DNA of 62,467 bases from assembly GCF_017565765.1 (NCBI RefSeq), contig NZ_JAGDYP010000011.1:1-62467 (forward strand), in the 5' to 3' direction. A program made the translations under genes and the position numbers. Positions 12,970 through 62,467 of this stretch are shown piece by piece. Position 1 is the stretch's first letter. The number at the start of each line of letters is the position of its first letter. Below the pieces are notes generated by a model, which saw nothing but the letters and a program-made list of their open reading frames with translations, did no database searches and was not told the origin of the DNA. Source of the DNA: Capnocytophaga bilenii. GTDB lineage: Bacteria > Bacteroidota > Bacteroidia > Flavobacteriales > Flavobacteriaceae.

Positions 12970-15900
12970 TTAATATCTTCCTTTTAGGTATAAATAGCCT
13001 CTTTCGTCTGTTTCTCTACCGCGCTTATCGGTATATTTGAGGATATAGAAGTAAGTGCCTGAAGGTAATAATTGTGCGCCTTCGGTATTGCTTATTCCTC
13101 TAAAAGAGCGGTGGCTGTTGTCATAATTCTGTTGTTCAAAGACTACTTTACCCTGACCGTTGAATATATAAACTTTATTGCTTGGGTAACATTCTATATT
13201 TTTTATATAGAAAAAGTCGTTAGCATCATCATTGTTAGCCGAAACAGCATTGAATATCTCTATTTTACAAGGTACTTCGTTCTCGCATTCATTGCGGATA
13301 CTAAATACAGTTTCTTTTGATGAACAATCATCGGGAGTACGAACTGCTACGGCATATACCAATTCTGGCTGTGCTCCTAAGATGACCCCTGCATCGGTTA
13401 CAGATAACAATGGATCGGTAAACACATAGCGGTAAGCAGGATTATAGTTGGTAATATAAGCTGCTCCTTCACTATCACAAGTGCGTGCCACTATAGCCAC
13501 TCTTGGCTGATATGAACGCTCTGGTATAATAAGAACTGCATCAGAAGTAGATTGGCATACTCCGTTGCTTGCTGTTACTGTTACGCTAAAGGTATGAGTA
13601 ACACTATTTTCAGGGAAGACAAGAATACCTGTATCTTTGGTTACCCCTCCAAAAGGATGAACGGTGTAAGTAAACTCCTTATTGTAATTCTTCACGAAAG
13701 CAATTGTACCCATATTACAATTTTCTTTGGCTACACTCAAGACTGGTTTCTCAAATTCTGATGTTGAGGGTTGTAGTCTAAAGTTTTCGGAAGTTGCAGC
13801 ACAACCATTATGGAAAGCTCGTACTCTATAATATGTATTGGTAGGAGGTGCCATAACTCTACCATCAGGGGTGATTGTTCCTGTTGGCAATACTTCATAT
13901 TCGTAATCGGGGTTGAAGTTAGTAATACGAGCAAAGCCCACAGCTCCACAGCCTCCTGGTATAAGGAGTATTTCGGGTTGTTCTACTCCATTAAGCTTAG
14001 GCTGTATAGTAAAGCCTTCAGAGGTAGCACTACATCCTTTGTAATGAGCTGTTACGTAGGTAAATATATTCTTACTTGCCTTGATACTTCCGTTAGCATC
14101 TACACTACCATTAGGGAATACGGTATACTGATAGATAGGATTGTAGTTGGCTACATAAGCACTCCCTTCCTCACCACAAATAGCTGCTTGGGTTATAACT
14201 ACGGGTTTTTCTGAAATTACTTTGGCAGCTTGTATGCTAAACTCTCTCGAAATTAGTTGACAACCTGCTGCATTAGTAACTGATACCCTATATACACCTT
14301 CACCTACTGAAATAACTGCATTATCTAATACTGTGCTTTTATTACCTTCTAAAAGAGTATAAGTAAAGTTACTATCATAGTTTGTAATCTTGGCACTACC
14401 AGCCTCGCCACAAGTTGCTGGCGTAGTAACTATCGCAGGTGCTTTTGGCATTGCTTCTTCAGCCTCAATAGTGAAAGCGGTACTTACCTTGCACGAACCA
14501 TTATTAACACTTAGCACATAATTACCTGCACCTGCTATAATTGTTCCGTCATAATGTACTCGCCCGCTAGGGGTAAGTACGTATTTATCAGTATAACGGC
14601 GGTCGTAATTAGCTATATAAGCCTTGCCTATTTCGCCACAAGTAGCCGAAGTAGTTACTACGATAGGAGTCGCAGGAATTTCATTCGCTCTTTGAACAAC
14701 AAACAGCTCTGACGACTTTTTACAATAACCATTACTTACCACTACATTGTAACTACCACCTGCTGTAACCGAAATAACTCCGTTAGCAAGTACCACATTA
14801 CCTTCTCTTTTTGGCAAAACAGTATAAGATAATTGAGGATCGTAATTACTGATACGAGCACTACCCGCTACGCCACAATCAGCGGCTGTAACTATCACTG
14901 TTGGTTGTGCTGGGATAGTTCGTTCTGCTTCAATCTCAAAGCTTACTGCTGTAGCTTCACAAGTACCATTGCTCACCTTGAGTTGGTATTTACCTGCTGT
15001 AGCCGAGATAACACCTCCTGCTGTAATAGTAGCTTCAGGAGTAAAACTATAAGTGTAATCTCCTCTATAGTTACGTATCACTGCACTTCCTTTTGTACCA
15101 CAAGAAGCATTGTAAACAGTTATCTTTGGCTGAGCAGGAGCTTCTTTTTGAGGATTGATAACAAAAATTGATGAATTAGCACTACAACCATTATTATTCG
15201 TAGCTATAACAATATACCTTCCCACTGTAGCCGAGATAACACCACCTTGTAATATTTCCCCTGCCGGACTTAATTTATATTGCAAAGCAGGGTCGTAATT
15301 ACTTATACGTACTAATGAAGGGGCTGCACAAGTAGCCGCTACTTCTTCTTCTATGGTAGGTACTGCAGGAGGCAATAACTGTGCTTTTATCTCAAAAGGA
15401 TCACTTTGCGAAGTACAGCTACCATTGCTCACTATAAGCACATAGTTATTAGCAGTTGCTGAAATCACTCCGTTACTAAGTATCTCATTACCTGCAATAG
15501 CTGGTGAAAGTTCGTAATTTAAGCTATTATCGTAATTCTTTATCAATACGTCGGTTACACCACCACAAGTAGCAGGTAAAACTCTCAATTCAGGTTTTGC
15601 AGGCAATACTTTTTCTTTGCCTATATGAAACTCACTTGTAGTAACTGCACAGTCGCCATTGCTAACTTCCAACTGATAGGTTCCTTCAGTAGCTTCTATA
15701 TGTAATGAGTTGATTGATTTTCTAACTCCTGATTTTGAAATAAGTGTATAGCTAAAGTTCTTATCATAATCACGGATGCGTATATCATTCGCTATACCAC
15801 AACCGGCTTCTGTTATAAAATCTATTTTAGGCAAGGCTGGTATCTTCTTAGCCTCTTCTATCACAAAGGTTGTAGAAGTAGCCACACAGCCATTGGTATT

Positions 15901-18900
15901 GCGTACTACTACTTGGTAAGTACCCGCAGTCATTGATAAGTCCGCAGTATTAATAGCACTGCTCTTAACTGCTGCTCCTGTAGCTGATAGAGCCACGAAT
16001 TGATAACGCAAATTGCTGTTGTAGTTATCTATATAAGCTTTGCCTTGAGCTCCACAACTTGCAGGAGTTGTACGTACTACAGGTGCTACAACGCCCTCTT
16101 TAGCAGACTCCACTACAAACTGAACCTCTTCACTATCGCAACTGCCATTGTTTACTAACAAAGTATATTTCCCAGCTTCATTAATTTCAGCACTAGTAAG
16201 CTTTTCTGTAACTGTTCCGTTATACAATTTATATATAAGATTATGGTCGTAGCCCTTAATAATAGCCTTACCCGATACACCACAAGCAGGTGCATCTACC
16301 CATACATCAGGTTTTTGAGGTATCTTTTTAGCCTCTTCTATCACAAAGGTTGTAGAAGTAGCCACACAGCCATTAGCATTGCGAACTACTACTTGGTAAG
16401 TACCCGCAGTCATTGATAAGTTCGCAGTATTAATAGCACTGCTCTTAACTGCTGCTCCTGTAGCTGATAGTGCTACCAACTGATAAGTCAATTTTTCGTT
16501 ATAGTTATCTATACGAGCCTTACCTATCTCGCCACAAGTAGCCGAAGTTGTAGTTACTTTAGGTGCTGTAACATTTTCTTTAGCTGCTGCTACTGTAAAA
16601 TGAACCTCTTCACTATCGCAACTGCCATTGTTTACTAACAAAGTATATTTCCCAGCTTCATTAATTTCAGCACTAGTAAGCTTTTCTGTAACTGTTCCGT
16701 TATACAATTTATATGTAAGATTACGATCGTAGTTCTTGATGATAGCCTTACCCGATACACCACAAGCAGGTGCATCTACCCATACATCAGGTTTTTGAGG
16801 TATCTTTTTAGCCTCTTCTATCACAAAGGTTGTAGAAGTAGCCACACAGCCATTAGCTTTGCGAACCTCTACCTTATAACTGCCCGCAGCTACTGCTATA
16901 GCTGCTCCATTAATATCACTACTCTTAACTACTGCCCCTGTAGCTGATAGAGCTACCAATCGATAACGCAAATTGCTGTCATAGCCCTCTATATAAGCCT
17001 TACCTATCTCGCCACAAGTAGCCGAAGTAGTACGTACTATAGGTGCTACAGCACCCTCTTTAGCTGCTGCTACTGTAAAATGAACCTCTTCACTATCGCA
17101 ACTGCCATTGTTTACTAACAAAGTATATTCCCCAGCTTCATCGATTTCAGCACTACCAAGCAATTCTGTACTAGCACCATTATTCAACTTATAAGTAAGA
17201 TTACGATCGTAGTTCTTGATGATAGCCTTACCACTCACACCACAAGCAGGTGCATCTACCCATACATCAGGTTTTTGAGGTATCTTTTTAGCTTCTCCTA
17301 TATCAAAGATTGTAGAAGTAGCCACACAGCCATTAGCGTTGCGTACTACTACTTGGTAACGACCTGCATCAGCTGTAAACTCAGCACTATTAAGTTTTCG
17401 TAACTCTTTACCATTCAAAAGCAACTGATAAGTCAACTTTCGGTCAAATTGGGTAAGGCGTGCACCTCCTTTTTTACCACATTCTGCTGGCAAAGGCTCT
17501 ACTATAGGAGCTTCTAATTTTTCTCTACCTTCTATACGGAAACTACTACTATTATCACAACCACTATTATATACTTTCAATTCATAAGAGCCCTCTTGTA
17601 ATCCCACAAGGTCTTTATTTTTAATGGTATTTATTACTCTATTATCTTTTAGTAACTCATAGCGGTACTTAGATTCATAGTTTTGTATCTCTACCCAACT
17701 ATTGCTATCACAAGTAGCTGGATGAGGTTTTAAACGAGGACTATCAGGCTTACCGGCACCTCTGTTGTAATGAATTTGAAACAAATTAGATTCTTTCTCA
17801 CAACTCTTATAGCTCACTACAAGTTTAAAATCTCCTTCTTGATTTATATGTATTCTACCGCTATAAGATTCTATCAAAGTTCCCGTATAAGGTACTTCTT
17901 TTCCTTCGTGGTTGTACACTTTATAAGTAGCTCCTCTTTCTTTAATTTTATCATAATCAGCATAATTTGAGAGCATAGCACGCATACCACCTCCACTACA
18001 AGCATCTCCATAAGGTATTGTTTCTACATAAGGTGTAGGTATTTCATTACAATCACGTTCATAGTCCTTATAAAATTCATAAGCCCCTATATCTATTGTT
18101 CCTTCCATAATACGAGGCATATGAGCCAAATCGAAGTCATTATCACTCTTGCTGCGGTATAAACCACCATTACCTGCATTTATCAAACTTCTTTTGGGGC
18201 GCAAATAGTATTTATCGTCTTTGCTCAAGCTTACAAATATGCCTGCTGGACTTTCTACCGGTATATTACCATTACCAGAAAGTGCACCATTCACCATACT
18301 ATATTGTACGTCTATATTCTTAAAGTTCCCATCTACACGTTCCAATAATACTGTATTGTGTATTTTAGGAGAAGCCGAAGGAGCTACCTTCAAATCATTG
18401 CCCCCATTATTGTAAAATGTAGCATTGATAAGCTGAGTATTGGCATATTGGTCATTTTCCATTGCCCAAGGAGTCATTACAAGTCCATCAGCTCCATTGT
18501 TAGGCTGGTCAATGTTATCATCTACATTATCACCTATAATATCTTCTTTTTTAGGTGTATTATCCGATACCTGCAAATTGATAAAGATAGGAGTAGCACG
18601 TTCACGTTCTGTACCTTTTACATAGATAAGTGCCTCACTACCAAATAAATTATCGGTAATAGCACAATTTTCAAAACGAGGAGAACCATTTGCCACATAA
18701 ATAGCTACCCCTTTTTTACCATTGATAGGAGCGGCATATTTCAAGCGAAACCCGTCAAGAGTCGCTACACCCATAGCTCCTTCCGAGGTAATAAGTCTAC
18801 CTATGTGAGCAACTCCAGCATTATTCACACGCCCACTTAGTACAGTGGGGTTTGCATACCAATCACGGTCTTTCAATGCTGTTTCATTACCTGCAAAACC

Positions 18901-50614: not shown

Positions 50615-50837
50615 TTTTATCTCATTTAAAAGCGGTGCAAAGATAGTAAATTATTAACAATTAATCATTAATAACAATAAAAAAACTACAACAGGGGGTA
50701 TTTTACTTCATTTTTTAAGGAGATAGCTCATCTAAAAAGTCTTTTATAAGTGAGTTTTTCTCCCTGAGTAGTATTAGCTTTACTTTGTATGAGCCGTGTT
50801 GCGTATAGAGCACTTCAGAACAGTATCTGAAATTTAT

Positions 50838-50869
50838 TTTGGAATTTATCAATAAAATTCATATTTTTG
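50838..50869 (+). promoter_or_regulatory. Promoter of the lipoprotein gene at 50902
   Basis: TTTG (50838-50841), 20-nt spacer, TATTTTTG (50862-50869). Confidence 0.7.
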
Positions 50870-50901
50870 CGCAATCAATTAGTAACTAAACATATAATAT
50901 T

Positions 50902-51537
50902 ATGATGAAGAGAATTTTATTACTCGTTATTGCAGCCATATCGTTTGCTGCTTGTTCAAAATCAGACAAAGAAACTCCTAACAGCGAAAAAGGAGGTAAT
51001 GACAAATTTTTAGGCACTTGGGTAGGAACTATAAAGGTTATTGCTGAAAAGCCTGAAAAACAGGCTAAAGTAGATGAAATTTTCAAACAAATGTATGGTA
51101 TAATCTTAGGAAGTCCTGAGACTAATTACGAAGTCTACTCAGTTAAAGTTGTTTTTAGCAACATAGAGGGTGAGAAAAAACTAAAAATAACAGATAAGAA
51201 TGGAGTATATACTTTCCAAGATATAACATACGCTGTAAATGGAAATAAAATAACTAATGAAGATAAAAAGCAAGACTTAGCTACTTATTATTTTGAAAAC
51301 AACAATAATTTATTAGCTGAAAATACTGATTTCTTCTTTCTCTTAGTAGATAGTGATGCTATTGGAAATAATAGTGAATATAAAAGAGAACTTGAAAAGT
51401 TAAACAAAGAATATCCTAATTTACCTTCTCTTAGTTTAGAAAAACAAGCTGAATACGCTGAAAAAAATATAATACTACAGCTAAAATATGATGTATCTTT
51501 AAGGTATAAGTACAAATATAACCTTACTCGTCAATAA
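50902..51537 (+). CDS. Lipocalin-like lipoprotein of unknown function
   Basis: A 211-residue lipoprotein (lipobox SFAAC at residue 18). The mature start is a flexible S/K/E/N linker, then FLGTWVGTIKV begins a beta-rich region like the lipocalin-like or DUF-type small lipoproteins of Bacteroidota. The C-terminal 60 residues are charged and helical, ending YKYKYNLTRQ. No specific family is recognised. It is the last gene before the tRNA fragment and has its own promoter and terminator. Confidence 0.65.
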   Translation: MMKRILLLVIAAISFAACSKSDKETPNSEKGGNDKFLGTWVGTIKVIAEKPEKQAKVDEIFKQMYGIILGSPETNYEVYSVKVVFSNIEGEKKLKITDKNGVYTFQDITYAVNGNKITNEDKKQDLATYYFENNNNLLAENTDFFFLLVDSDAIGNNSEYKRELEKLNKEYPNLPSLSLEKQAEYAEKNIILQLKYDVSLRYKYKYNLTRQ

Positions 51538-51556
51538 TAAAATAACTATCATATAT

Positions 51557-51597
51557 AAAAGCACCCCTGATAAGCACAAGCCTATTAGGGGTGTTTT
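51557..51597 (+). terminator. Terminator of the lipoprotein gene
   Basis: CACCCCT/AGGGGTG stem with an 18-nt loop, followed by TTTT. Confidence 0.65.
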
Positions 51598-51666
51598 ATT
51601 AGCGTTTAAAACAGCTTTTCTTGCTCTATCGTATTCGTTTTTCAATTTCTTACTAAATTCAGACAT

Positions 51667-51706
51667 AAAAAAGAGTGATTTATGCGCATATAAACCACTC
51701 TTTTTT
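51667..51706 (-). terminator. Terminator next to the tRNA fragment
   Basis: AAGAGTG...CACTCTT stem extended by TTTA/TAAA, with A- and T-runs on the outside. It lies 16 nt past the 3' end of the tRNA fragment on the minus strand, where an intact tRNA gene would have its own terminator. Confidence 0.65.
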
Positions 51707-51721
51707 AGCTATCTAAATTTT

Positions 51722-51766
51722 GTAGCGGGAACTGGACTCGAACCAGTGACCTTCGGGTTATGAGTT
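51722..51766 (-). other. 3' fragment of initiator tRNA-Met, probable attachment site
   Basis: On the minus strand the sequence runs from the anticodon loop (CTCATAA) through the 3' anticodon-stem strand (CCCGA), variable loop, a perfect T-arm (ACTGG-TTCGAGT-CCAGT) and the 3' acceptor strand TCCCGCT plus A. The CAT anticodon with CCC pairing partner is the hallmark of the initiator tRNA. Bases 5' of the anticodon loop do not fit a tRNA: GGGAA cannot pair with CCCGA, and no D-arm or 5' acceptor strand follows. It is therefore not a functional tRNA but the displaced 3' half left when an element integrated at the anticodon loop. Confidence 0.8.
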
Positions 51767-51774
51767 CCCTTTTG

Positions 51775-51810
51775 TAGATAAAAGCCGTTTTATATAATAG
51801 CTTTTATCTA
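51775..51810. repeat. 11-bp inverted repeat beside the tRNA fragment
   Basis: TAGATAAAAGC (51775-51785) and GCTTTTATCTA (51800-51810) are perfect complements with a 14-nt loop. On the element side of the att core. The remainder of the gap to 52106 is AT-rich with no gene seen. Confidence 0.65.
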
Positions 51811-52106
51811 ACTTCTAACGCCATAAAACCTAATAAAAATACTCGGTTATATACTCTATCTATTGTTGATTTTAAGTATCAAGATAACATTTTTTAGAAA
51901 TTAAATTGAAATACTTTTAAATCTAAAATACAAATACATTTCTATTTGAATTGCAAATATAGAAATAAAAAATGGAACTAAGATATAAATTATTTTTTCT
52001 TTTCTTTTTTCCTGTAAGAAAACGTTTTTTCATTATTCAAAATCACTAAGCCAATAGTATATCTTTTATCAATTTTACCATAAAAACGAATAGTTTCAAT
52101 AGAAAG

Positions 52107-54440
52107 TTAACTTCCACACGCCAAACATTCCTCAGGGTTGTCTAGCGAGCAGGCTACTTGTGATTGTCCTAAAAGCAGCTGCGTATCTACGGTAAATTTG
52201 ATGGCATCTACGGCGGCTTTGGTGCGGAGGTAGTACATACCCGTTTTGAGTCCGCTTTTCCACGCGTGGAAGTGCATCGAGGTGAGCTTTGCCAAATTCG
52301 GCTCTGCCATAAAGAGGTTGAGCGACTGCGACTGACAGATAAACGCTCCTCGCTCTGCCGCCATATCAATGATGGTTTTTTGCTTGATTTCCCAAACGGT
52401 TTTGTACAATTCTTTCAGCTCCGTAGGGATTTTAGGAATGTTTTGCACCGAACCATTTTCGGCGATGAGTTTGTTTTTCATCGTAGGGTTCCAAAGTCCC
52501 AACTCGATGAGGTCTTTGAGTAAGAATTTATTCACCACCACAAATTCGCCCGAAAGCACACGGCGGTTATAAATATTGCTGGTGTAGGGTTCAAAGCACT
52601 CATTGTTGCCCAAAATCTGCGAAGTAGAGGCGGTAGGCATCGGTGCTAAAAGAAGCGAATTGCGTACGCCGTGGGTCATCACCTCTTGGCGAAGTTTTTC
52701 CCAATCCCAACGGTCAGAAGGGACAACTTGCCACAAATCAAACTGAAATTTCCCTTCCGAAAGCGGCGACCCTGCAAACGAGCTGTATGCCCCTTGCTCC
52801 TTTGCCAAGTCCATCGAGGCTTCCATCGAGGCAAAATAAATCGTCTCGAAAATATCCTTGTTCAGCCTCCGAGCTTCTGGGCTTTCAAAGGGCAAACGGA
52901 GGAGTAAAAACACATCTGCCAAGCCCTGCACGCCTAAGCCTATCGGACGATGGCGGTCGTTGGAAGTTTTGGTCTCAGGAATGGGATAATAATTTCCATC
53001 GATGATTTTATTGAGATTTCGCGTAACGATTTTGGTTACTTCGTAGAGTTTTTGAAAATCAAATCCCCCACTGGAAACATAGCGAGGCAATGCCAAGGAA
53101 GCCAAATTGCACACCGCCACCTCATCGGCGTTGGTGTATTCCATTATTTCGGTGCAGAGGTTGGAACTGCGTATCGTACCAATGTTCTTTTGGTTTGATT
53201 TTTCATTCACGGCATCTTTGTAGCACATATAAGGTGTACCGGTTTCGATTTGAGCTTCGAGAATGGCTGTCCAGAGTTCGCGTGCCTTGATTTGCTTGCG
53301 AAATTTTCCTTCGTTTTCGTAAGTGGTATAAAGTTCGTTGAATTTTTCGCCATACACCTCGTACAGCCCTTGTGCTTCGTTGGGGTCAAAGAGCGACCAC
53401 ATTTGGTCGGCTTCTACGCGTTGCATAAAGAGGTCAGGAATCCAAAGGGCAGGAAATAAATCCCTTGCGCGCATCTCCTCCTTACCGTGATTTTTACGAA
53501 TATCAATAAAATCAAAAATATCCAAGTGCCACGGTTCGATATAGACGGCAATAGCACCTTTGCGTTTGCCGCCGCCTTGATCTACATAACGAGCCGTATC
53601 ATTGAACACGCGAAGCATCGGAATAATGCCGTTGGAAATTCCGCCTGTACCTTTGATATAGCTCCCCGTGGAACGAATGTTATGAATGCTCACACCAATA
53701 CCACCCGCTGATTGCGAAATCAAAGCACAGCGTTTGAGGGTGTCAAAAATCCCAGCGATGCTGTCTTCGGTCATACTCAGCAAAAAGCAAGACGACATTT
53801 GCGGTTTGGGCGTACCGGCGTTGAAAAGCGTTGGTGTAGCGTGGATAAACCATTTTTCGCTCATCAAGTTGTAAGTTTCAATCGCCGCCTGAATATCCTC
53901 TTTGTGAATGCCCAACGCCACACGCATAAAGAGATGCTGTGGGCGTTCGGTTACCTTTCCATTGGTACGAATGAGGTAGGAACGCTCTAAGGTTTTAAAT
54001 CCGAAGTAATCAAAATTATAATCGCGGTCGTAGATGACACTGCTGTCGAGTTCATCGGCGTTTTTACGAATGATTTTATAAATTTCTTCGGAGATGAGAG
54101 GTGCGTGGGTTTGGGTTATGGGGTCGGTGTATTCGTAGAGCAATTGAGCGGTTTTTGAAAACGATTTGAGAGTGTTTTTGTGCAAATTGCTCACGGCGAT
54201 GCGTGCCGCCAAGACCGAAAAATCAGGGTGAATGGTAGTTTGTGCAGCGGCGGTTTCTGCCGCAAGGTTGTCCAGTTCGGTAGTGGTAATATTGTCGTAA
54301 ATCCCTTGAATGACTTTTTTAGCAATTTCAATTACATCTTTTTCCGAAATTGATAAGCCGTAGATGAGTTTATGAATACGAGCCGTAATTTTATCAAAAT
54401 GAACGGCTTCTTTTTTTCCGTTTCTCTTTATTACAAACAT
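52107..54440 (-). CDS. nrdA: Class I ribonucleotide reductase, large subunit
   Basis: A 777-residue NrdA that reduces ribonucleoside diphosphates with NrdB. The N-terminal ATP-cone (about 1-95) gives allosteric activity control. The substrate-site cysteine is in SSCFLLSM (C218). The active-site NxCxE motif is SSNLCTEI (near 430), and the C-terminal redox pair is in ECLACGS. All key residues are kept, so it should be active. It is the last gene of the sodB operon, 8 nt after def. The organism may have another reductase elsewhere; this cannot be seen here. Confidence 0.95.
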
Positions 54441-54448
54441 TTCTTTTT

Positions 54449-55030
54449 TTATTTGAATTTCATAGCATAAGCAGGAACTAGATTTCCTTTCAATAGTTTT
54501 TGGAGTTTGGATTGCATCAGTTTTTTCGCCAAGGGTTTCACGCGGTCAATGTAGAGAATGCCTTCCAAGTGGTCGTATTCGTGGAGAATCACGCGTGCAG
54601 TCATTCCGCTAAAAGTTTCGGTGATGGTTTCAAATTGTTCGTTTTGATAGCTCAATTCCACCGACCACGAACGGGCTACTTTTCCTGATAAAAAGGGCAA
54701 ACTCAAACAGCCTTCTGCTTCTTCCCATTGTTCTTCGGAAAGATTTTTTATTTGCGGATTGATAAACACTCGCCGAATACCCGTGTCGCCTTTTTCGAAA
54801 TAGGCTATTTTATCCCTTTCGTCCATCGCCTCGTAAAGCAATTGAGAATCGGCAACGAACAACCGCAACGATTTTCCGACCTGCGGTGCTGCCAACCCAC
54901 AGCCATTGGCCTTTTCCATCGTTTCCCACATATTGGCGATGAGTTCGTGCAAATTGGGAAAATCAGAGGCTACGGCTTGTGCCTTGACTTTGAGTACATT
55001 ATTTCCGTAAGCAAATATGGGAAGTTTCAT
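54449..55030 (-). CDS. def: Peptide deformylase
   Basis: A 193-residue deformylase that removes the formyl group from nascent chains. All three motifs are intact: GCGLAAPQ (43-50), EGCLS (106-110, metal-binding Cys) and HEYDH (150-154). The iron form of this enzyme is known to be damaged by H2O2, which may matter for its place between nrdB and nrdA in an operon with superoxide dismutase and peroxiredoxin. Its presence inside an RNR gene pair is unusual in my experience. Whether a second def exists elsewhere is unknown. Confidence 0.93.
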
Positions 55031-55084
55031 TTTTTTAATGGTTTTATTTGGCTAATAGCTAATGGCCGATAGCCAATAGTTATT

Positions 55085-56059
55085 TTAAAAATCTTCATCG
55101 AGTGAAAAGGTGTTTTGTTCGCTGTTGGTTTGTGCTACGCCTGTTTTTTGGTATTCGCCTACACGCCGTTCGAAGAAATTGGTTTTTCCTTGCAGAGAAA
55201 TAAGTTCCATAAAATCAAACGGATTGGTAGCGTTCCACACTTTATTGCACCCCAAGGCAACGAGCAATCTATCGGCTACAAATTCGATGTATTGGCACAT
55301 CAGTTCGGCATTCATTCCGATGAGTTTCACAGGGAGTGCATCGGTAACAAATTCCTTTTCGATAGCAACGGCATCTACGATGATTTCTCGTATGGTTTCT
55401 TCCGAAAGTTTGTTTTGTAGATGATTGACATAGAGCAAACAAGCAAAATCGCAGTGCAAGCCTTCGTCCCGACTGATGAGTTCGTTAGAAAAGGTGAGCC
55501 CTGGCATCAAGCCGCGTTTTTTGAGCCAAAAAATAGAGCAAAAACTTCCTGAAAAGAAGATGCCCTCCACCGCAGCAAAGGCGATGAGTCGCTCGGCAAA
55601 ACTTCCTTTGGTAATCCATCGCAACGCCCATTTTGCTTTTTTGGTAACACACGGAATGGTTTCGATGGCACGAAGCAAATAATCCTTCTCGGCAGGGTCT
55701 TTCACATAAGTATCGATGAGGAGCGAGTACATCTCGGAATGGATATTTTCAATCATAATTTGAAATCCGTAGAAACATCGTGCCTCAGGATATTGCACCT
55801 CTTGGAGGAAGTTGATGGCAAGATTTTCATTCACGATGCCATCACTGGCAGCAAAAAAAGCCAACACTCGCGAGATGAAAAATCGTTCGTTGTCGTTGAG
55901 TTTGTTTTGCCAATCGTGGAGATCGGGCGACAAATCTACTTCTTCTGCCGTCCAAAAACTGGCTTCGGCGTTTTTGTAGAATTGCCAAATATCATTGTGC
56001 TGTATAGGAAAAATGACAAAGCGGTCTTTGTTGTCTTGTAAGAGGGGTTCGGTAATCAT
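55085..56059 (-). CDS. nrdB: Class I ribonucleotide reductase, small subunit
   Basis: A 324-residue di-metal R2 protein that generates the radical for NrdA. Metal ligands are D73, E104, H107, E165, E199 and H202. The radical tyrosine is Y111 in IHSEMYS, so this is a classic tyrosyl-radical enzyme and not a Phe-type variant. The [18 protein letters not shown] block is close to eukaryotic R2. The C-terminal tail that docks to NrdA ends SLDEDF. Its start overlaps the YceI stop by 4 nt. Confidence 0.95.
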
Positions 56060-56655
56060 TTTTTAGTTTCTTTTAATTTTACAGACGCGTGAATATCAAC
56101 ATTTTCCCATACTTTACTTATACCATCAACACCTTTATGCAAATCAAAACAAACTGAGTTAAGTACTTCTAAGGCTTTCAAAGCTTTAAAATCTTTCAAA
56201 TCGATAGAAGATTTGACACTCAATAAATTATCTTTGAATTGAATTTCTGCTGGAATATTATTCACACTAACTCCATTCATTCTTAGCTTAATAGTCCATT
56301 GATGGTTTTCAAAAATGAATTTTCCTGATATTTTTCCTGCTTCGTTCATCAATCCGAAAAAGGAATTTTTAATTTTTTCATCTCTGGAAGGATCTCCTGT
56401 TGATAACTCCAAAGCACGAATAGAAAACTCAGCATTGTTTAAAAAATCTTCAATGGATTTTCCTTCTGAAAGGTTGATTAAGTCCACCGATTCAAAAGTT
56501 CCTTTTACAGGTAATTTCTCGGTAGTTTTATATGCCGTCCATTCTACTTTTGCTGAATTTTCAACGGGTTCAAAAGATGATTTTTCATTTTTACAAGAAT
56601 ACAACAATGTACCTCCTATACCTAATAGTACGATGAATAATTTTTTGATTTTCAT
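56056..56655 (-). CDS. YceI-family lipoprotein
   Basis: A 199-residue lipoprotein (lipobox LLYSC near residue 20) with a YceI-type lipocalin fold ([18 protein letters not shown] start; [15 protein letters not shown] late block). YceI proteins bind isoprenoid chains in a barrel; here it would face the periplasm. The start at 56655 forms TAATG with the aminopeptidase stop; another ATG lies two codons upstream. Its presence in a redox and RNR operon suggests a quinone- or lipid-binding role, but that is inference. Confidence 0.8.
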
Positions 56656-58097
56656 TAGCATTTACTTTTTACAAATTCATAAATCAGTCTTACAGGCACT
56701 GCTGTTGCTCCGCTTTGTTTATAGCCTTTTTTGTCTTTGAGGAAAGCAGCTCCTGCGATATCGAGATGTACCCAAGGGTAATCGGTAAAATGCTCCAAAA
56801 ATTTGGCTGCTGTACTCACTCCGCCGATGGGTCCGCCAATGTTTTTAAGGTCGGCAATATCAGATTTTATGAGTTCGCCGTATTCTTTCCAAAGAGGGAG
56901 CTGCACAATGCGTTCATAGACTTCCTCGCCAATGGATTTTAGAGCATCGATACTTTCTTGGTGGTTGGAAAGTCCTGCAATTCCGAAACTCCCTGTAATC
57001 GCCGCCGAAGCTCCCGTGAGCGTAGCCATATCAATCACTAATTCAGGGTTGAATTTTTTCGCATAGCAAAGTGCATCTGCCAAAACAAGTCGTCCTTCGG
57101 CATCGGTATTTTGCACTTCTACCGTAGTGCCGTCCATTATGGTAATCACATCATCTACCACTAAGGCATTGGAATTGATTTTGTTATCCGTGGCGGGTAC
57201 AATACCAATCACATAGTAAGGCAATTGATTCCCCGCAATTACCGAAATGATACCCAACACAGCGGCACCACCTGCCATATCGCATTTCATTGTACTCATT
57301 ACGCCACCCACTTTGAGTGAGTAACCGCCCGTATCGAACATTACACCTTTGCCTACCAAAACCAAAGGTTGAGAATTGACCGCATTTTTCGGTTTGTAGT
57401 GCATAATATTAAAAGTGGGTGGTGTTTCCGAGCCTTTATTCACGCCGAGCAAACCTCCCATTTTTAGGGTTTCGATTTGTTTTTTATGAAGAATTTCCGT
57501 TCCAAAACCGAATTTTTCACCTGCTTCCTGCACCCATTCTGAAAACTTGAGAGCATCCATATAATTAACAGGTTCATTTACTGCGTTTTTGGTGAGGGAA
57601 ATGGCTTCAAGAACTGTGTTAAGTTCATTGTATTGCTTTTCAGAAAGAGCGGTTTCCGAAACAAATAGCGTGATTTTACCCGTCTTTTTTTTGGATAGAT
57701 ATTTATCAAAATGATAACTGCTAAGCAACACACCTTCCAAGAGGGCGTATTTTTCTTTTTCGGAGAAAAGTTCCAGATTTTCAAGAACCGCCTCCACCGA
57801 AGATGAAACAGAAGACGGTTGTAGTTGTTGCACAATGGTTGCCCCTACTTGTCTTAAATCCTCTAATTCGTATTTGGAAACGGCTACCAGCAAACTTTTT
57901 TCTTCTTGCCAAAGATGCCAATGTTTATTCTCCTTATCCTCAAACGACTGATGAATTTCTTCTTTCAAATTTTCCTGAATATCAATATTTTGCAAATCTT
58001 TTTGGCTACGAATAAAACGAATTATTGTGCCTTTCTCAAACGATAATTTGTCGGCGGTATAGCGTTTTAGCTCTGTATAAAGGTAAGTATCGATCAT
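56655..58097 (-). CDS. Leucyl aminopeptidase (M17)
   Basis: A 480-residue cytosolic M17 aminopeptidase. The metal and catalytic blocks GKGVMFDTGGYSLK (Lys/Asp), MKCDMAGG and QNTDAEGRL are complete. The start at 58097 (MIDTYLY) is chosen because it follows the peroxiredoxin stop by 5 nt; the longer frame at 58154 would intrude into that gene and its product would start unlike the family. The enzyme trims N-terminal residues, which may complement peptide deformylase in the same operon. Confidence 0.9.
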   Translation of the reverse strand: MIDTYLYTELKRYTADKLSFEKGTIIRFIRSQKDLQNIDIQENLKEEIHQSFEDKENKHWHLWQEEKSLLVAVSKYELEDLRQVGATIVQQLQPSSVSSSVEAVLENLELFSEKEKYALLEGVLLSSYHFDKYLSKKKTGKITLFVSETALSEKQYNELNTVLEAISLTKNAVNEPVNYMDALKFSEWVQEAGEKFGFGTEILHKKQIETLKMGGLLGVNKGSETPPTFNIMHYKPKNAVNSQPLVLVGKGVMFDTGGYSLKVGGVMSTMKCDMAGGAAVLGIISVIAGNQLPYYVIGIVPATDNKINSNALVVDDVITIMDGTTVEVQNTDAEGRLVLADALCYAKKFNPELVIDMATLTGASAAITGSFGIAGLSNHQESIDALKSIGEEVYERIVQLPLWKEYGELIKSDIADLKNIGGPIGGVSTAAKFLEHFTDYPWVHLDIAGAAFLKDKKGYKQSGATAVPVRLIYEFVKSKC

Positions 58098-58102
58098 TTT
58101 AT

Positions 58103-58717
58103 TTATTTTTTTAATTGTTGAGAAAGTGTTTGTTCTCCCGCCTTCCACCCACAAGCGGTTAATTCTTCTGTTTGGAGAGCATCTAATACGCGAAGTACTT
58201 CATCTACATTTCTTCCCACATTCATAGGATAAACGCTCACCCATTGTATAATTCCTTGTGGGTCAATGATAAAAGTAGCTCGATAAGCAACTTTTTCTTC
58301 GCAATTTAAAATTCCCATTTCTTCGGCTAAAGATTTGGAAGTATCGGCAAGCATTGGAATAGAAAGTTCTGCTAATTGTGGATGATTTTCTCTCCACCCT
58401 AAATGTACATATTCGGTGTCGGTAGAAGCACCAATCAACACAGCGTTTCTTTCCAGAAATTTTTTATTATTTTTATTAAATTCTATAATTTCTGTTGGAC
58501 AGACGAAAGTAAAATCTTTAGGCCACCAAAAAAGCACCATCCACTTTCCTTGTTCGGCTGCGTAGTTGTGTGTGATTTCAGAGATTTCTATGCCTTTCTT
58601 TGTAGAAATAACGGCTTTTTTAACAAATTCTGGTAATTTATCTCCAATGCTTAGTATTCCTTTTTGGATGAGTTGTAATTGCTCTTTCTGAACCAATTTT
58701 TTAATTGAATTGCACAT
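58103..58717 (-). CDS. 2-Cys peroxiredoxin
   Basis: A 204-residue thiol peroxidase. The peroxidatic cysteine is C73 in FTFVCPTEI. The resolving cysteine is C189 in the ACGWKAGEQTL end, as in typical 2-Cys AhpC-like enzymes, so it detoxifies H2O2, alkyl peroxides or peroxynitrite. Its ATG lies inside the last codons of the TPR-like gene (17-nt overlap). Confidence 0.93.
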   Translation of the reverse strand: MCNSIKKLVQKEQLQLIQKGILSIGDKLPEFVKKAVISTKKGIEISEITHNYAAEQGKWMVLFWWPKDFTFVCPTEIIEFNKNNKKFLERNAVLIGASTDTEYVHLGWRENHPQLAELSIPMLADTSKSLAEEMGILNCEEKVAYRATFIIDPQGIIQWVSVYPMNVGRNVDEVLRVLDALQTEELTACGWKAGEQTLSQQLKK

Positions 58718-59186
58718 AATCGAATGTTTTTATATTTTCTAAATTGTTTGTTATCAATCGTTTTTTCAAGTAAGTTAAAAAAATAGTTTTACTTATTGTA
58801 TCTAAATTATTTTTTTGAATAAAGTTTATGTAACTAATGACAGATTTTTTCAATTCTCCCTGAATTTCTTCTTTTTTATAATTCTTTTCATAGAGATATA
58901 AAAGAAAATATATCACTTTTTGCAACATTTCCTCTGCATTTTTCAAATCTTTTATTTCCTGATAGCAATTTGCCAAGTTGTTACACGAAACAACGTACAA
59001 TTGTACAAAAGGAACTTTCAGTCGGACGCAATCGAGAAAATTACCATTAAGCACTTCAGCTCTGTACAAGGCATTTAGATAGCCACTCAAAGCAACTTCA
59101 TAATTTCCTTCGTTAAAAGATTCATTGGCTTCTTCGGTTAAAATCTTCCAATAATTTTCGATATGTTTTACACAAGTATCACTCAT
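58701..59186 (-). CDS. TPR-like small helical protein
   Basis: A 161-residue helical protein with tetratricopeptide-like spacing (EANESFNEGNYEVALSGYLNALYRAE, then CNNLANCYQEIKDLKNAEEML). I recall similar small TPR proteins encoded beside catalase or peroxidase genes in other bacteria, but no function is established. It overlaps sodB by 8 nt and the peroxiredoxin gene by 17 nt, so it is made together with them. It may be an adaptor for one of the redox enzymes; inference only. Confidence 0.65.
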   Translation of the reverse strand: MSDTCVKHIENYWKILTEEANESFNEGNYEVALSGYLNALYRAEVLNGNFLDCVRLKVPFVQLYVVSCNNLANCYQEIKDLKNAEEMLQKVIYFLLYLYEKNYKKEEIQGELKKSVISYINFIQKNNLDTISKTIFLTYLKKRLITNNLENIKTFDYVQFN

Positions 59187-59784
59187 TATATTTCAAGTTT
59201 TGGTTAGCAAAATTCCAGTTTACAAGTTCCCAAAAACCTTCCACGAATTTGGGTCTTGCATTTCGATAATCGATATAGTAGGCGTGCTCCCACACATCGA
59301 GGGTAAGGATAGGAGTTTTATTTTCAGTCAGTGGAGTGAAAGCATCTTTCATTGGGAGAATTTCTAATTTTCCTTCCTGATTTTGAGCCAGCCACGCCCA
59401 ACCAGCACCGAATAATTTTACGGCAGTGGCAGAGAATTGTTCTTTAAAATTTTTAAAACTTCCGAAATCGCGGTTGATGAGTTCAGCGATTTTTCCAGTA
59501 GGATTTTTTCCGCCATCGGGCGAGAGACAATTCCAAAAAAAGGAATGATTCCAATGTTGAGCTGCATTGTTGAAAATGGCTACTTGGTTTTCGTTGTAGC
59601 TTTTTCGGATGATGTCCACGATGTCTTTTTCCGCCCATTCGGTATCTTTTACCAATCCCGCAAGGTTGTTTACATAGGCAGCGTGATGCTTTTCGTAGTG
59701 ATAATCAAAAGTTTCCTCTGTAATAATCGGATTTAGAGCATTTTTGTCATACGGAAGCTCTGGGAGTGTGTGATTAATATTCAT
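59179..59784 (-). CDS. sodB: Superoxide dismutase (Fe/Mn family)
   Basis: A 201-residue Fe/Mn SOD. Metal ligands are H29 (in DYHYEKHH), H80 (in NAAQHWNH), D163 and H167 (in LDVWEHAYY). The glutamine Q76 in the NNAAQ block is characteristic of the iron (or cambialistic) class. It is the first gene of the eight-gene operon, preceded by a -7 element and a palindrome. Confidence 0.93.
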   Translation of the reverse strand: MNINHTLPELPYDKNALNPIITEETFDYHYEKHHAAYVNNLAGLVKDTEWAEKDIVDIIRKSYNENQVAIFNNAAQHWNHSFFWNCLSPDGGKNPTGKIAELINRDFGSFKNFKEQFSATAVKLFGAGWAWLAQNQEGKLEILPMKDAFTPLTENKTPILTLDVWEHAYYIDYRNARPKFVEGFWELVNWNFANQNLKYNE

Positions 59785-59861
59785 TATTTTTCAGGTTTAA
59801 ATAGTTAGCTTAATTGATTTTCAATTGTTTAATATTATTGTTTTTAATATTTTTAGATTTG

Positions 59862-59869
59862 CAAAAGTA
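59862..59869 (-). promoter_or_regulatory. -7 element of the sodB-nrdA operon
   Basis: TACTTTTG on the minus strand, about 80 nt before the sodB start. The palindrome at 59874-59889 lies between it and where the -33 element should be. Confidence 0.55.
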
Positions 59870-59873
59870 ATAA

Positions 59874-59889
59874 TTTAGATTTATCTAAA
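59874..59889. promoter_or_regulatory. Palindromic operator of the sodB-nrdA operon
   Basis: TTTAGAT-TT-ATCTAAA is a perfect 7-2-7 inverted repeat set 4 nt upstream of the -7 element, so a bound protein would block polymerase. Its TTTAG...CTAAA form resembles DtxR/MntR-family metal-regulator boxes; that match is from memory, not a search. Confidence 0.6.
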
Positions 59890-60015
59890 AAAATAAATTG
59901 ATGATTTTTTTATTTATTTTTTCAATATAGTTTTTTAATAATTTGTAAATCAAATATATAAAATAAAGTTTGATGTTTTACACGTTATTTATTTTTTGTT
60001 TTTTTCGGTGAGATG

Positions 60016-60240
60016 CTATTCTAATCTTTGCGAAAGAGTCATAATTTCTTTACAGATAGCCACTATTTGAGCGGTTTGTTTTTCAAGTTTAAACAGATAG
60101 GTGGAGGCTTTCTTTTCGGAAAAATTGCGATACAAAATCTTTACAATCAGATTGTAATTCACTCCCACTACCCGAAATTACCCATAGAGTTCGGTGAGTT
60201 TGATATAAAAATCCTTTACCAATTTACCGATTTTTACACT
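60016..60240 (-). pseudogene. Remnant of a conjugative-element MobA protein
   Basis: The minus-strand frame reads DFYIKLTELYG-stop-FRVVGVNYN, then NFSEKKASTYLFKLEKQ and a stop at 60018-60016. This fits the C-terminal part of the MobA mobilization proteins of CTnDOT-like Bacteroides elements (VGVNYNQ, NFSEKKALAFLYKLE in my recollection). One in-frame stop and the missing N-terminus show it is dead. The 77-residue open frame on the other strand (60028-60261) is a shadow. Confidence 0.7.
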
Positions 60241-60241
60241 T

Positions 60242-60861
60242 TTGATTTCTTTGGAAAATAATACCGAAATAAAAATATATCTTAAATGCAATAAATCCCC
60301 AAAATTTATTGCTGGGCAATTGGGTGTGTCAGAAAGTACCATTAGCAGAGAGCTGAAAAGAGGGGTATATCCCCCTCAAAACGCTCAGGAACACGCAAAT
60401 ATTCGCAAGGAAAGATTTGCTGTAAAATTGTGGGCTATTGTAAAAAACAAAATATCAATATGGTAAGTACTGAAAAGATTTATCAATATATCCGAGAAAA
60501 TAAGGGAAAAGGAGGTGATTTATATCAATATTTAAGACATAAGTTAAAACATCGAAAACAGCTCCCTTTCCTTCGGAGAGGGCTGAGGAGAGGACGAAAA
60601 CCAATTAGTTTACGCCCTGAAATCGTTTTGACTAATGAAGAATTTGGATATTTTGAAGTAGATTAATTGTGGGGGCAGAACACAAAAGAGCAATTTTGAC
60701 GATTGTAGAAAGAAAAATATTTTTTTAATAATGAGTAAGTTAAGTAGTAAAAATGCAAAAAAATAACCAAAGCGATGATAGAGGCTTTGCTTCCGTATAA
60801 AGATTTTGTAAAAACCATTACGAGTGATAATGGATTGGAGTTTTGTGAACATTGTGCTTAA
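60242..60861 (+). pseudogene. Broken IS30-family transposase
   Basis: At least three frames are needed. First comes a helix-turn-helix with FIAGQLGVSESTISRELKRG (60299-60360), then MVSTEKIYQYIRENKGKGG and LRHKLKHRKQLPFLRRGLRR. After that come pieces of the DDE core (GQNTKEQFLTIVERK near 60675; KTITSDNGLEFCEHCA near 60815-60858). These match IS30/IS4351-type transposases in order. Several deletions and frameshifts have removed the rest. It follows the MobA remnant directly. Confidence 0.8.
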
Positions 60862-61110
60862 GGGTTGAATGTACCACATAAAAAATAAATCATCTGATAA
60901 CCAAATTGTAAAATTATTTTTATCGCTGTAATTGGATTCTGTTCAGTGATATAAGGTAATAAATATAAGTTTCTGATTTTCAATAAAATAATTTATTTAA
61001 AAAATAAAAAAGCAACTGATAATTAACCAAGCATAATTATGTGTTGAAATACACTGCATTTAAATTCGTATTCCTCTTCCTCGCTCTGCTTTTATCTCCT
61101 TGTTTTTCTT

Positions 61111-61335
61111 GTTTCCGATTTAGAAGGAAACCTGCAAGAAGTCGTTACAGATTTAGAATGGACTGCTACCAAAAATGATTTGATTGAACTTGTTTATGCC
61201 TTACAACAAATTAAAGCCATTTCTTATGGGAAGGTGAGTATCAACAAAATCATTACTATCTTTGACAAAATATTCAATATTGATTTAAAAGATTCAATTT
61301 TTCTCTATCTTATCACTAGCTATCTAGCTTTATAA
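61111..61335 (+). pseudogene. rteC: C-terminal remnant of RteC
   Basis: The frame reads LQEVVTDLEW, TKNDLIELVYALQQIKA, GKVSINKIITIFDKIFNIDL and stops at TAA 61335. This is the conserved C-terminal half of RteC, the regulator of excision in tetracycline-inducible Bacteroides conjugative transposons. No start codon or N-terminal half is present. Confidence 0.75.
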
Positions 61336-61498
61336 AGTTTGATTTACTTGAAATACTGCGGTATTTCTACTTCTTGGTAATCAAGCTATATAGTATACTG
61401 CTTTTTAGCTACCCATTGTTTTTGAGTTCCACAAAGAGCTCAAAAACTAAATCTAAATTTCCTATAGAAAGAAAAAACGAGTTCCGAAGTTTTTTCCC

Positions 61499-61623
61499 CT
61501 TTTTAGTCTTCTTTCACAAAAATGCAGCCATAGGCAAGTTTTTGAAAAAGAGGACTAAAAAGCAAGATGCGCCTTTGTATACCGTTTTGCTAAAAACTGT
61601 GTATATACAAAGGCACATCTTGC
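61499..61623. repeat. Two large consecutive inverted repeats
   Basis: First: CTTTTTAGTCTTCTTTC (61499-61515) against the region 61544-61562 ending GACTAAAAAG. Second: 61562-61581 against 61604-61623 (19 of 20 pairs; core GCCTTTGTATA/TATACAAAGGC). They share the base around 61562. Such hairpins occur near transfer or regulatory regions of Bacteroides elements; the small open frame 61374-61640 across them is not a credible gene. Confidence 0.7.
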
Positions 61624-61850
61624 CCCTAAAAACAATATAACTTAAGACTTTCACAAAAAATCTGATTTACAAATAGTTACTAAAAATAAGGTAAATCATA
61701 CTCTCAGATTGGGTAAAAATGCAGAAAGAAAAAATGTGTGTGCTTATTTTTATTTATATATATTATAATAATATATAATTAGGAAGAAAAGAGCTTAAAA
61801 ATTAGATTTTATCTTTAATTAATTGATTATCAGATAATTATTAAAAAATA

Positions 61851-62467
61851 GGGTAGGTGTATTTTCCGCACCCCCCTTGTGTAGGGTAGGTGTATTTTCC
61901 CTACCCCTCTTGCTTAGGGTAGGTGTATTTTCCCTACCCCCCTTGCTTAGGGTAGGTGTATTTTCCCTACCCCCCTTGCTTAGGGTAGGTGTATTTTCCC
62001 TACCCCCCCTTGCTTAGGGTAGGTGTATTTTCCCTACCCCCCTTGCTTAGGGTAGGTGTATTTTCCCTACCCCCCTTGCTTAGGGTAGGTGTATTTTCCC
62101 TACCCCCCTTGCTTAGGGTAGGTGTATTTTCCCTACCCCCCTTGCTTAGGGTAGGTGTATTTTCCCTACCCCCCTTGCTTAGGGTAGGTGTATTTTCCCT
62201 ACCCCCCTTGCTTAGGGTAGGTGTATTTTCCGCACCCTCCTTGCATAGGGTAGGTGTATTTTCCGCACCCTCCTTGCATAGGGTAGGTGTATTTTCCCTA
62301 CCCCCCTTGTGTAGGGTAGGTGTATTTTCCGCACCCTCCTTGCATAGGGTAGGTGTATTTTCCCTACCCCCCTTGCATAGGGTAGGTGTATTTTCCCTAC
62401 CCCCCTTGTGTAGGGTAGGTGTATTTTCCGCCCCCCCCCTTGCATAGGGTAGGTGTATTTTCCCTAC
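61851..62467. repeat. 33-bp tandem repeat array
   Basis: About 18-19 head-to-tail copies of a 33-bp unit with GGGTAGGTGTATTTTCCCTA and a C-run plus TTGCTTA; the array runs off the right edge. Each full unit can fold (GGGTAGG/CCTACCC, 9-nt loop). Outer copies carry CCGCACCC and TTGTGTA or TTGCATA variants and the C-run varies from 5 to 8. Because 33 is a multiple of 3 it gives open frames on both strands that are not genes. Confidence 0.92.

Follow-up and report, generated by a model that had tools for sequence, protein, structure and literature searches.

In Bacteroidota, integrative and conjugative elements (ICEs) and islands inserted at the 3' end of tRNA genes have in common with the element described here an integrase gene beside the rebuilt tRNA gene, a direct repeat of the tRNA 3' end and traces of MobA and RteC. 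Manganese transport operons under MntR or TroR share a palindromic operator with its cargo, and Treponema denticola TroR is described as a manganese- and iron-dependent repressor with an 18-bp dyad before troA (PMC2628430). The class Id ribonucleotide reductases (RNRs) studied in a further report depend on manganese, and the structure 6CWO is the class Id NrdB of F. johnsoniae (PMC6754362). Features of these systems meet in a stretch of 62,467 nucleotides (the window), which is the entire contig C2 (NZ_JAGDYP010000011.1) of the Capnocytophaga bilenii genome (2.73 Mb in 20 contigs). We read its right-hand part, beginning behind a displaced tRNA half at 51719, as a mobile element inserted in the initiator tRNA-Met gene and carrying an enzyme cassette that is proposed to be induced at low manganese, a reading to which we give a probability of about two thirds. 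Within it, the island with its site, its integrase and its empty site is well supported by genome comparison, and from the operator and the enzyme types we infer manganese control via MntR and a use as iron-type spares at manganese shortage.

At 51719..51764, read on the minus strand, the window holds 46 bp, the distal attachment site of the island, that are 100% identical to C18:1464-1509, a stretch covering the 3' portion of the intact gene for tRNA-Met(CAT) placed by ARAGORN at C18:1467-1540(-); in the window the program called no complete tRNA. The identical stretch runs from the first anticodon-loop base to 3 bases beyond the called tRNA gene. An earlier note, made from the letters of the window, had described a tRNA(Met) 3' half cut at the anticodon loop, which agrees with the match to C18 except that the right end given there, 51766, overshoots by 2 bp in this genome. 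Initiator tRNAs are recognized by three GC pairs in the anticodon stem and a mismatch at 1:72, and the C18 gene has both. Together with its flank the full tRNA occurs once in this genome and is present in 18 of the 20 genomes of the genus, this one counted, the two without a match (G014 and G017) being 88-89% complete; the 46-bp half is found in three of the 20, namely this one, G010 and G018. The earlier note had also predicted an intact initiator tRNA gene with the same 3' half and an adjacent integrase, and both were found in the correct orientation near the end of contig C18, where a 426-residue tyrosine recombinase (C18:141-1421(-); PF00589, 8.5e-10) is encoded on the 3' side of the intact tRNA, followed by the contig end. 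The resulting order of chromosome and half on C2, element, integrase, full tRNA and alr on C18 fits a single insertion. Moreover, the chromosomal flanks, joined by script, align to the genome G008 as one piece across the junction (90.9% over 1426 bp, starting at window position 51627, 92 bp left of the tRNA), so that G008 has the site as it was before this insertion.

The initiator tRNA site is an insertion hotspot. Relatives of the integrase occur in six other genomes of the genus (seven of 20 with this one), and few genes on the 3' side of the initiator tRNA are common between the species compared. G010 carries the half at 472107-472152 and, on the same contig, the integrase with the full tRNA at 515240-516595; the half is directly adjoined on its left by a further integrase, which shares 68% identity with the one that abuts the tRNA in G007. 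G018 has the same architecture with a 46-bp half, spread over two contigs; its element has a different array, of 65 bp, at the place of the 33-bp array of the window element. A search with the integrase gave nothing in viral contigs and 22 records in phages, the best-ranked at 34.6% identity.

How does the element continue beyond the window? Its right-hand boundary is invisible there because the window stops at the contig end, inside a tandem array of 33-bp units (61849..62467, 18.7 copies). C18 begins with the end of a multicopy repeat (C18:1-124, with full or partial matches at 100% in 7 places, of which C18 is one) and continues with the edge of the array (C18:124-140), so that an insertion sequence (IS) copy within the array could explain the break. 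At C11:28121-29398, beside another tRNA-Met(CAT) gene, the genome encodes the integrase a second time, with 96% amino acid identity. This copy belongs to a sister element, in which the 33-bp array (L158:3402-3970, L158 being a stretch of C11) lies directly behind the integrase gene and is followed by a spacer matching 61398-61848. Since the sister element thus has the same integrase end followed by the array with which the window ends, C2 and C18 very probably join as one continuous island, with an estimated length of roughly 13-16 kb, as far as homology allows this to be read. By its relaxase (PF03432) and TraG ATPase (PF19044) the C11 element is a full ICE, with other transfer-type genes recognized by eye, and its far end, about 43 kb away, has its own tRNA half, 46 bp identical to its tRNA. 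The integrase-proximal spacer of the window (61398..61848) is common to the sister ICE (88% over 1057 bp of L158, array included) and partly to the G018 element (alignment with L156: 83% over 167 bp). At the other end, the first ~100 bp of the distal arm (51765..52080) resemble the distal arms of the same two elements, with alignments of 79% over 140 bp (sister ICE) and 78% over 161 bp that include the tRNA half. One unit of the array can fold into a 7-bp hairpin (z -3.0), and the array is perhaps part of an attachment or transfer origin region; such a hairpin-forming array at the integrase-gene side, kept by the window element and the sister ICE, distinguishes both from Bacteroidota ICEs, as do, for the window copy, the missing conjugation genes in the assembled part and the metabolic operon that it carries.

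This operon, the cargo, is 8.2 kb long, lies on the minus strand and has the order sodB-TPR-prx-lap-yceI-nrdB-def-nrdA. It begins with sodB (59179..59784), which encodes a superoxide dismutase (SOD) of the iron type (273.4 bits with the Fe model vs 155.1 with the Mn model, both below cut-off), and continues with genes for a small TPR-like protein (58701..59186, profile match below cut-off), an AhpC/peroxiredoxin (58103..58717, PF00578), an M17 leucyl aminopeptidase (56655..58154, PF00883, 2e-105; the true start is probably downstream of 58154) and a YceI-like lipoprotein (56056..56661, PF04264, 24.8 bits vs a cut-off of 23.7). There follow nrdB for a class Ia-like RNR small subunit, the best solved relatives of which are mouse and human R2 (55085..56059), def for the second peptide deformylase of the genome (54449..55030, PF01327; the other copy is on C15) and nrdA for a class I RNR large subunit with ATP cone (52107..54440, PF02867 at 1e-219 and PF03477, TIGR02506 above cut-off).

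The RNR and SODs that the host already has appear to be of another metal type. Its own class I RNR is, as judged from sequence, a dimanganese class Id enzyme resembling NrdAi/NrdBi: the alpha subunit matches 6dqw at 7e-303, the beta subunit matches the F. johnsoniae protein 6CWO at 2e-129 and has E-x3-K-x2-W (EVSVKTFW), in agreement with the published Glu/Lys/Trp spacing. A B12-dependent class II assignment was rejected on these alpha and beta matches. Besides nrdB of the cargo, this class Id beta is the only R2-type subunit found in the genome. Unlike it, the cargo enzyme is class Ia-like: its large subunit has an ATP cone, and its R2, of the mouse type, aligns with mouse R2 over nearly full length and carries the conserved mouse-type metal-site and tyrosine segments. 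The SODs of the host favour the Mn model (255.7 vs 219.3 and 215.8 vs 180.0 bits with the Fe model, all below the curated cut-offs), and an SOD besides the cassette-type sodB is present in all 20 genomes of the genus.

A distant RNR is likewise present in 20 of 20, and a close NrdA (98-100%) in three, this one, G013 (three times) and G004. In G013, three places match window positions 52081-60289 with 98.5% identity, and 52109-59876 match G004 at 90%, up to the end of a G004 contig. Close sodB (at least 91%) occurs in five genomes, of which G002 and G005 are without close nrdA or def; their partial cassettes (L186 in G002, L187 in G005) comprise sodB-TPR with the operator described below, joined in G005 by a YceI-like gene, and among the open reading frames (ORFs) listed for them there is no nrdB. 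Such counts (NrdA 3/20, sodB 5/20) led us to reject the idea that the genus had the cassette ancestrally, and the finding that would have spoken against the island proposed earlier, sodB-nrdA at the same place in relatives, was not made, as close NrdA is absent in 17 of 20 genomes and the G013 and G004 copies lie away from the initiator tRNA. In G013 the cassette is part of three identical units of 13,678 bp at three chromosomal sites (one at G013:C1:1891765-1905442), each holding an integrase, MobA and the end of a beta-lactamase gene of the CfxA family. By content these units are like what we take to be Tn4555-like mobilizable elements with cfxA, from which the window island differs in its integrase and its tRNA target, no beta-lactamase gene being seen in the island part of the window. 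In Sphingobacterium sp. JB170, sodB-TPR-prx-lap-nrdB-def-nrdA follows MobB, with MobA-like and TraG-like genes recognized by eye. The JB170 version then runs on through map, pyrC and the gene for a cofactor-dependent phosphoglycerate mutase to one LpxH-like and one MntR-like gene, each scoring below cut-off, and a metal ABC transporter. In Myroides sp. NP-2 the order is sodB-TPR-nrdB-nrdA, and inspection by eye of the stretch viewed showed no mobile genes. Among the best 80 NrdA loci (named genomes, within the flank examined) the sodB-TPR linkage is found in JB170 and Myroides only, and a plasmid search with the NrdA protein returned 809 records, all below 60% identity. In three settings the cassette thus lies next to genes for mobilization or what is left of them, and there is good support for an operon that travels together with such genes and whose operator is conserved. 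A limited literature search of titles and abstract starts found no paper describing this cassette or island.

What could control the operon? Before sodB, just upstream of a -7-like element, lies a predicted palindromic operator, TTTAGATTTATCTAAA (59874..59889). The exact 16-bp palindrome pattern is found only in this place in the 2.73-Mb genome, with 0 for the control. Six cassette promoters are readable, that of G004 being cut off by the contig end; the palindrome is exact in the window, G013, G002 and G005, with matched changes in both arms in G002, and has one mismatch in JB170 and Myroides. In 22.3 kb of JB170 there are two one-mismatch sites, against 0.83 expected, and one of them lies in the gap between mntR and mntA. 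Furthermore, JB170 MntA was searched in 295 genomes of the class, 73 of which had a match, and the loci of the 30 best matches were read. The exact palindrome is common to 14 of these 30 MntABC loci, each time no more than ~120 bp ahead of the point at which mntR or mntA begins to match, compared with 0.09 expected from shuffles (maximum 1, n=100 shuffles) and 0 for the reversed pattern. The cassette resembles MntR/TroR manganese transport operons in this common palindromic operator, and differs from them in that the operator stands before enzymes and not a transporter, on a mobile element; the comparison with the TroR site is one of description, not of letters. In the host, the DtxR-family protein (C13:358652 region) scores best with MntR, at 170 bits (cut-off 350), against 84 bits with DtxR, also below cut-off; an operator-bearing locus (L230) encodes a protein of this family that shares 52% identity with it.

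The following course of events is proposed, its first part supported by sequence. The tyrosine recombinase inserted the element site-specifically into the initiator tRNA-Met gene, leaving the chromosomal 3' half at 51719-51764 and rebuilding the intact gene beside the integrase on C18. The element has kept both ends of its Bacteroidota ICE family and lost the conjugation genes (in the assembled part), and the operon is its main content. Present-day transfer would need its own integrase and helper functions like those of the sister ICE. A manganese sensor of the MntR/DtxR family would repress the operon through the 59874-59889 palindrome, so that manganese scarcity would switch on isozymes that work with iron or without manganese. 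The class Ia di-iron RNR could then stand in for the dimanganese class Id RNR of the host and the Fe-type for the Mn-type SOD, and aminopeptidase and deformylase would be putative spare copies. More broadly, and tentatively, at somewhat under even odds, the cassette can be seen as a portable manganese-independence kit with a travelling MntR-type operator, in which iron-using enzymes replace manganese ones and which moves between genera on unrelated vehicles.

Several observations weigh against manganese control or against parts of the island. Regulators of the DtxR family can respond to iron in addition to manganese, as does TroR (PMC2628430). Sixteen MntABC loci out of 30 lack the exact palindrome, and among the 14 positive ones some look like close relatives; the palindrome also occurs once in 78 nrdA loci (1.46 Mb, JB170 and Myroides excluded) and once in 21 stretches of the genus that lack the cassette promoter (285 kb), where it lies outside a cassette at L152:1429 (G010:C1:467429). 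The JB170 transporter scores best with a zinc-type model and next with Mn/Fe models, all below cut-off. In the host genome, a protein search found no relative of the JB170 MntA transporter, the exact palindrome is nowhere else present, and 3.2 kb around the MntR-like gene contain no site with fewer than two mismatches to it; for these reasons a manganese regulon of the host stays putative, and the operon might be silent in this host. The Fe/Mn type calls of the cargo and host SODs are read from scores below cut-off. As for the island, the join of C2 and C18 is derived from homology to the sister ICE, with C18 starting inside a multicopy repeat, and the empty-site alignment left of the tRNA is limited to 92 bp because debris of an earlier element comes next.

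Could the cargo serve another purpose? Grouping sodB, an AhpC-type peroxiredoxin and an O2-dependent RNR would suit an oxygen or oxidative-stress kit for aerobic growth in which metal control is secondary. We consider this unlikely: the operator agrees with that of manganese-type transporter operons, another SOD already exists in every one of the 20 genomes of the genus, and oxygen alone leaves map, pyrC, phosphoglycerate mutase and the LpxH-like, MntR-like and metal transporter genes of JB170 unexplained. Target duplication against deformylase or aminopeptidase inhibitors was rejected, since it leaves SOD, RNR and operator unexplained. It could also be imagined that the operon answers iron (or zinc) under a DtxR-type iron repressor, since operators of the DtxR family are alike and JB170 MntA scores best with the zinc-type model. 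The preference of the host regulator for MntR over DtxR, with both scores below cut-off, and the oddness of acquiring iron-type enzymes in response to iron starvation make this improbable.

With respect to the island, the half on C2 and the integrase end on C18 might come from two separate elements inserted in tandem, given the hotspot, the integrase directly left of the half in G010 and the older debris left of the half in the window. In the sister ICE, however, this integrase is followed by the very array and spacer that end C2, and the distal arm of the window element matches the sister ICE as well, so that two elements appear very unlikely compared with one continuous island. Rearrangements are common around tRNA genes, and the half could owe its origin to one, or to a gene duplication, without integrase action; this is nearly excluded by the same 46-bp half in the integrase-bearing elements of G010 and G018 and the uninterrupted site in G008, on which grounds the half was also rejected as debris.

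The remainder of the island, right of the cassette, holds the mobile-gene remnants. MobA is left in two pieces (60016..60375, minus strand), of which 60016-60177(-) matches PF19514 MobC_2 at 4.7e-19 and NCBIfam Bacteroid_MobA at 1.5e-20, the latter below cut-off, as expected for a fragment, and 60178-60375(-) matches MobC_2 at 8e-4, below cut-off; the same remnant adjoins sodB in G013. RteC (61048-61335, plus strand) matches PF09357 at 3.3e-15 with no NCBIfam match. Both remnants, expected right of the half, were thus borne out piecewise by Pfam profiles. The transposase debris on the plus strand (60209..60861) had been called IS30-like; its first piece (60209-60466(+)) does match HTH_38 (1.3e-7), while no transposase model recognized it, and the other two pieces gave one chance-like match (0.011) and none. 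Among the ORFs listed and scanned in 51765-62467, the assembled part, a search for relaxase, coupling protein and mating-pair genes, as a self-transmissible Bacteroidota ICE would have, found the MobA and RteC remnants only, and a plasmid search with island DNA gave no match. The description as a decayed conjugative element holds for these remnants, but the main content is an enzyme operon with its own promoter that is also found in other vehicles.

Left of the half, an earlier element at this site has left remnants (50837..51718). They include a lipoprotein ORF on the plus strand (50902-51537), which with its flanks is homologous to the sister ICE at C11:~59325-60085, and, within 51627-51718, the start of another integrase gene; the latter stretch adjoins the intact tRNA in G008. 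Positions 50837-51610 are ~88% identical to the sister ICE (L173, also from C11: 87.8% over 686 bp), and further alignments are 87.5% over 88 bp (L157), 96.4% over 139 bp (L160) and 90.4% over 135 bp (L154), the last two taking in the tRNA half. The polarity of the half fits the earlier assignment of chromosome to its left and element to its right, but ~50837-51718 is earlier-element debris and not core chromosome. Further left are ffh and folD; none of 17 stretches from 15 relatives had ffh, folD, aroE or purH near the initiator tRNA, and ffh was not confirmed as an old core neighbour. An Rfam scan of the window gave 0 matches, and at 15839-17359 a 480-bp unit is repeated 3.2 times. In the sister ICE, the TraG-type ATPase (L158, 8577-11588) has a DnaJ domain inserted mid-protein (PF00226 at residues 568-631), which is unusual for this family, and near the distal end a 1999-residue protein (L173:13337-19336), by eye a methyltransferase-helicase fusion, possibly serves anti-restriction or defence. 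A plasmid search with part of this ICE returned two records, covering 5% of the query.

Animals are known to defend themselves against bacteria by withholding manganese, and since the host RNR is of the dimanganese type, DNA synthesis without manganese is a question for such bacteria. If the proposal is true, the kit would act when manganese is withheld, for example by calprotectin of the animal host, replacing the only other class I RNR of the bacterium, and its vehicles would be tRNA islands and mobilizable elements. The palindrome would serve as a practical operator motif for regulation of the MntR type throughout the class, and the mobile cassette, including its control site, would represent a trait of metal adaptation passed on by gene transfer.

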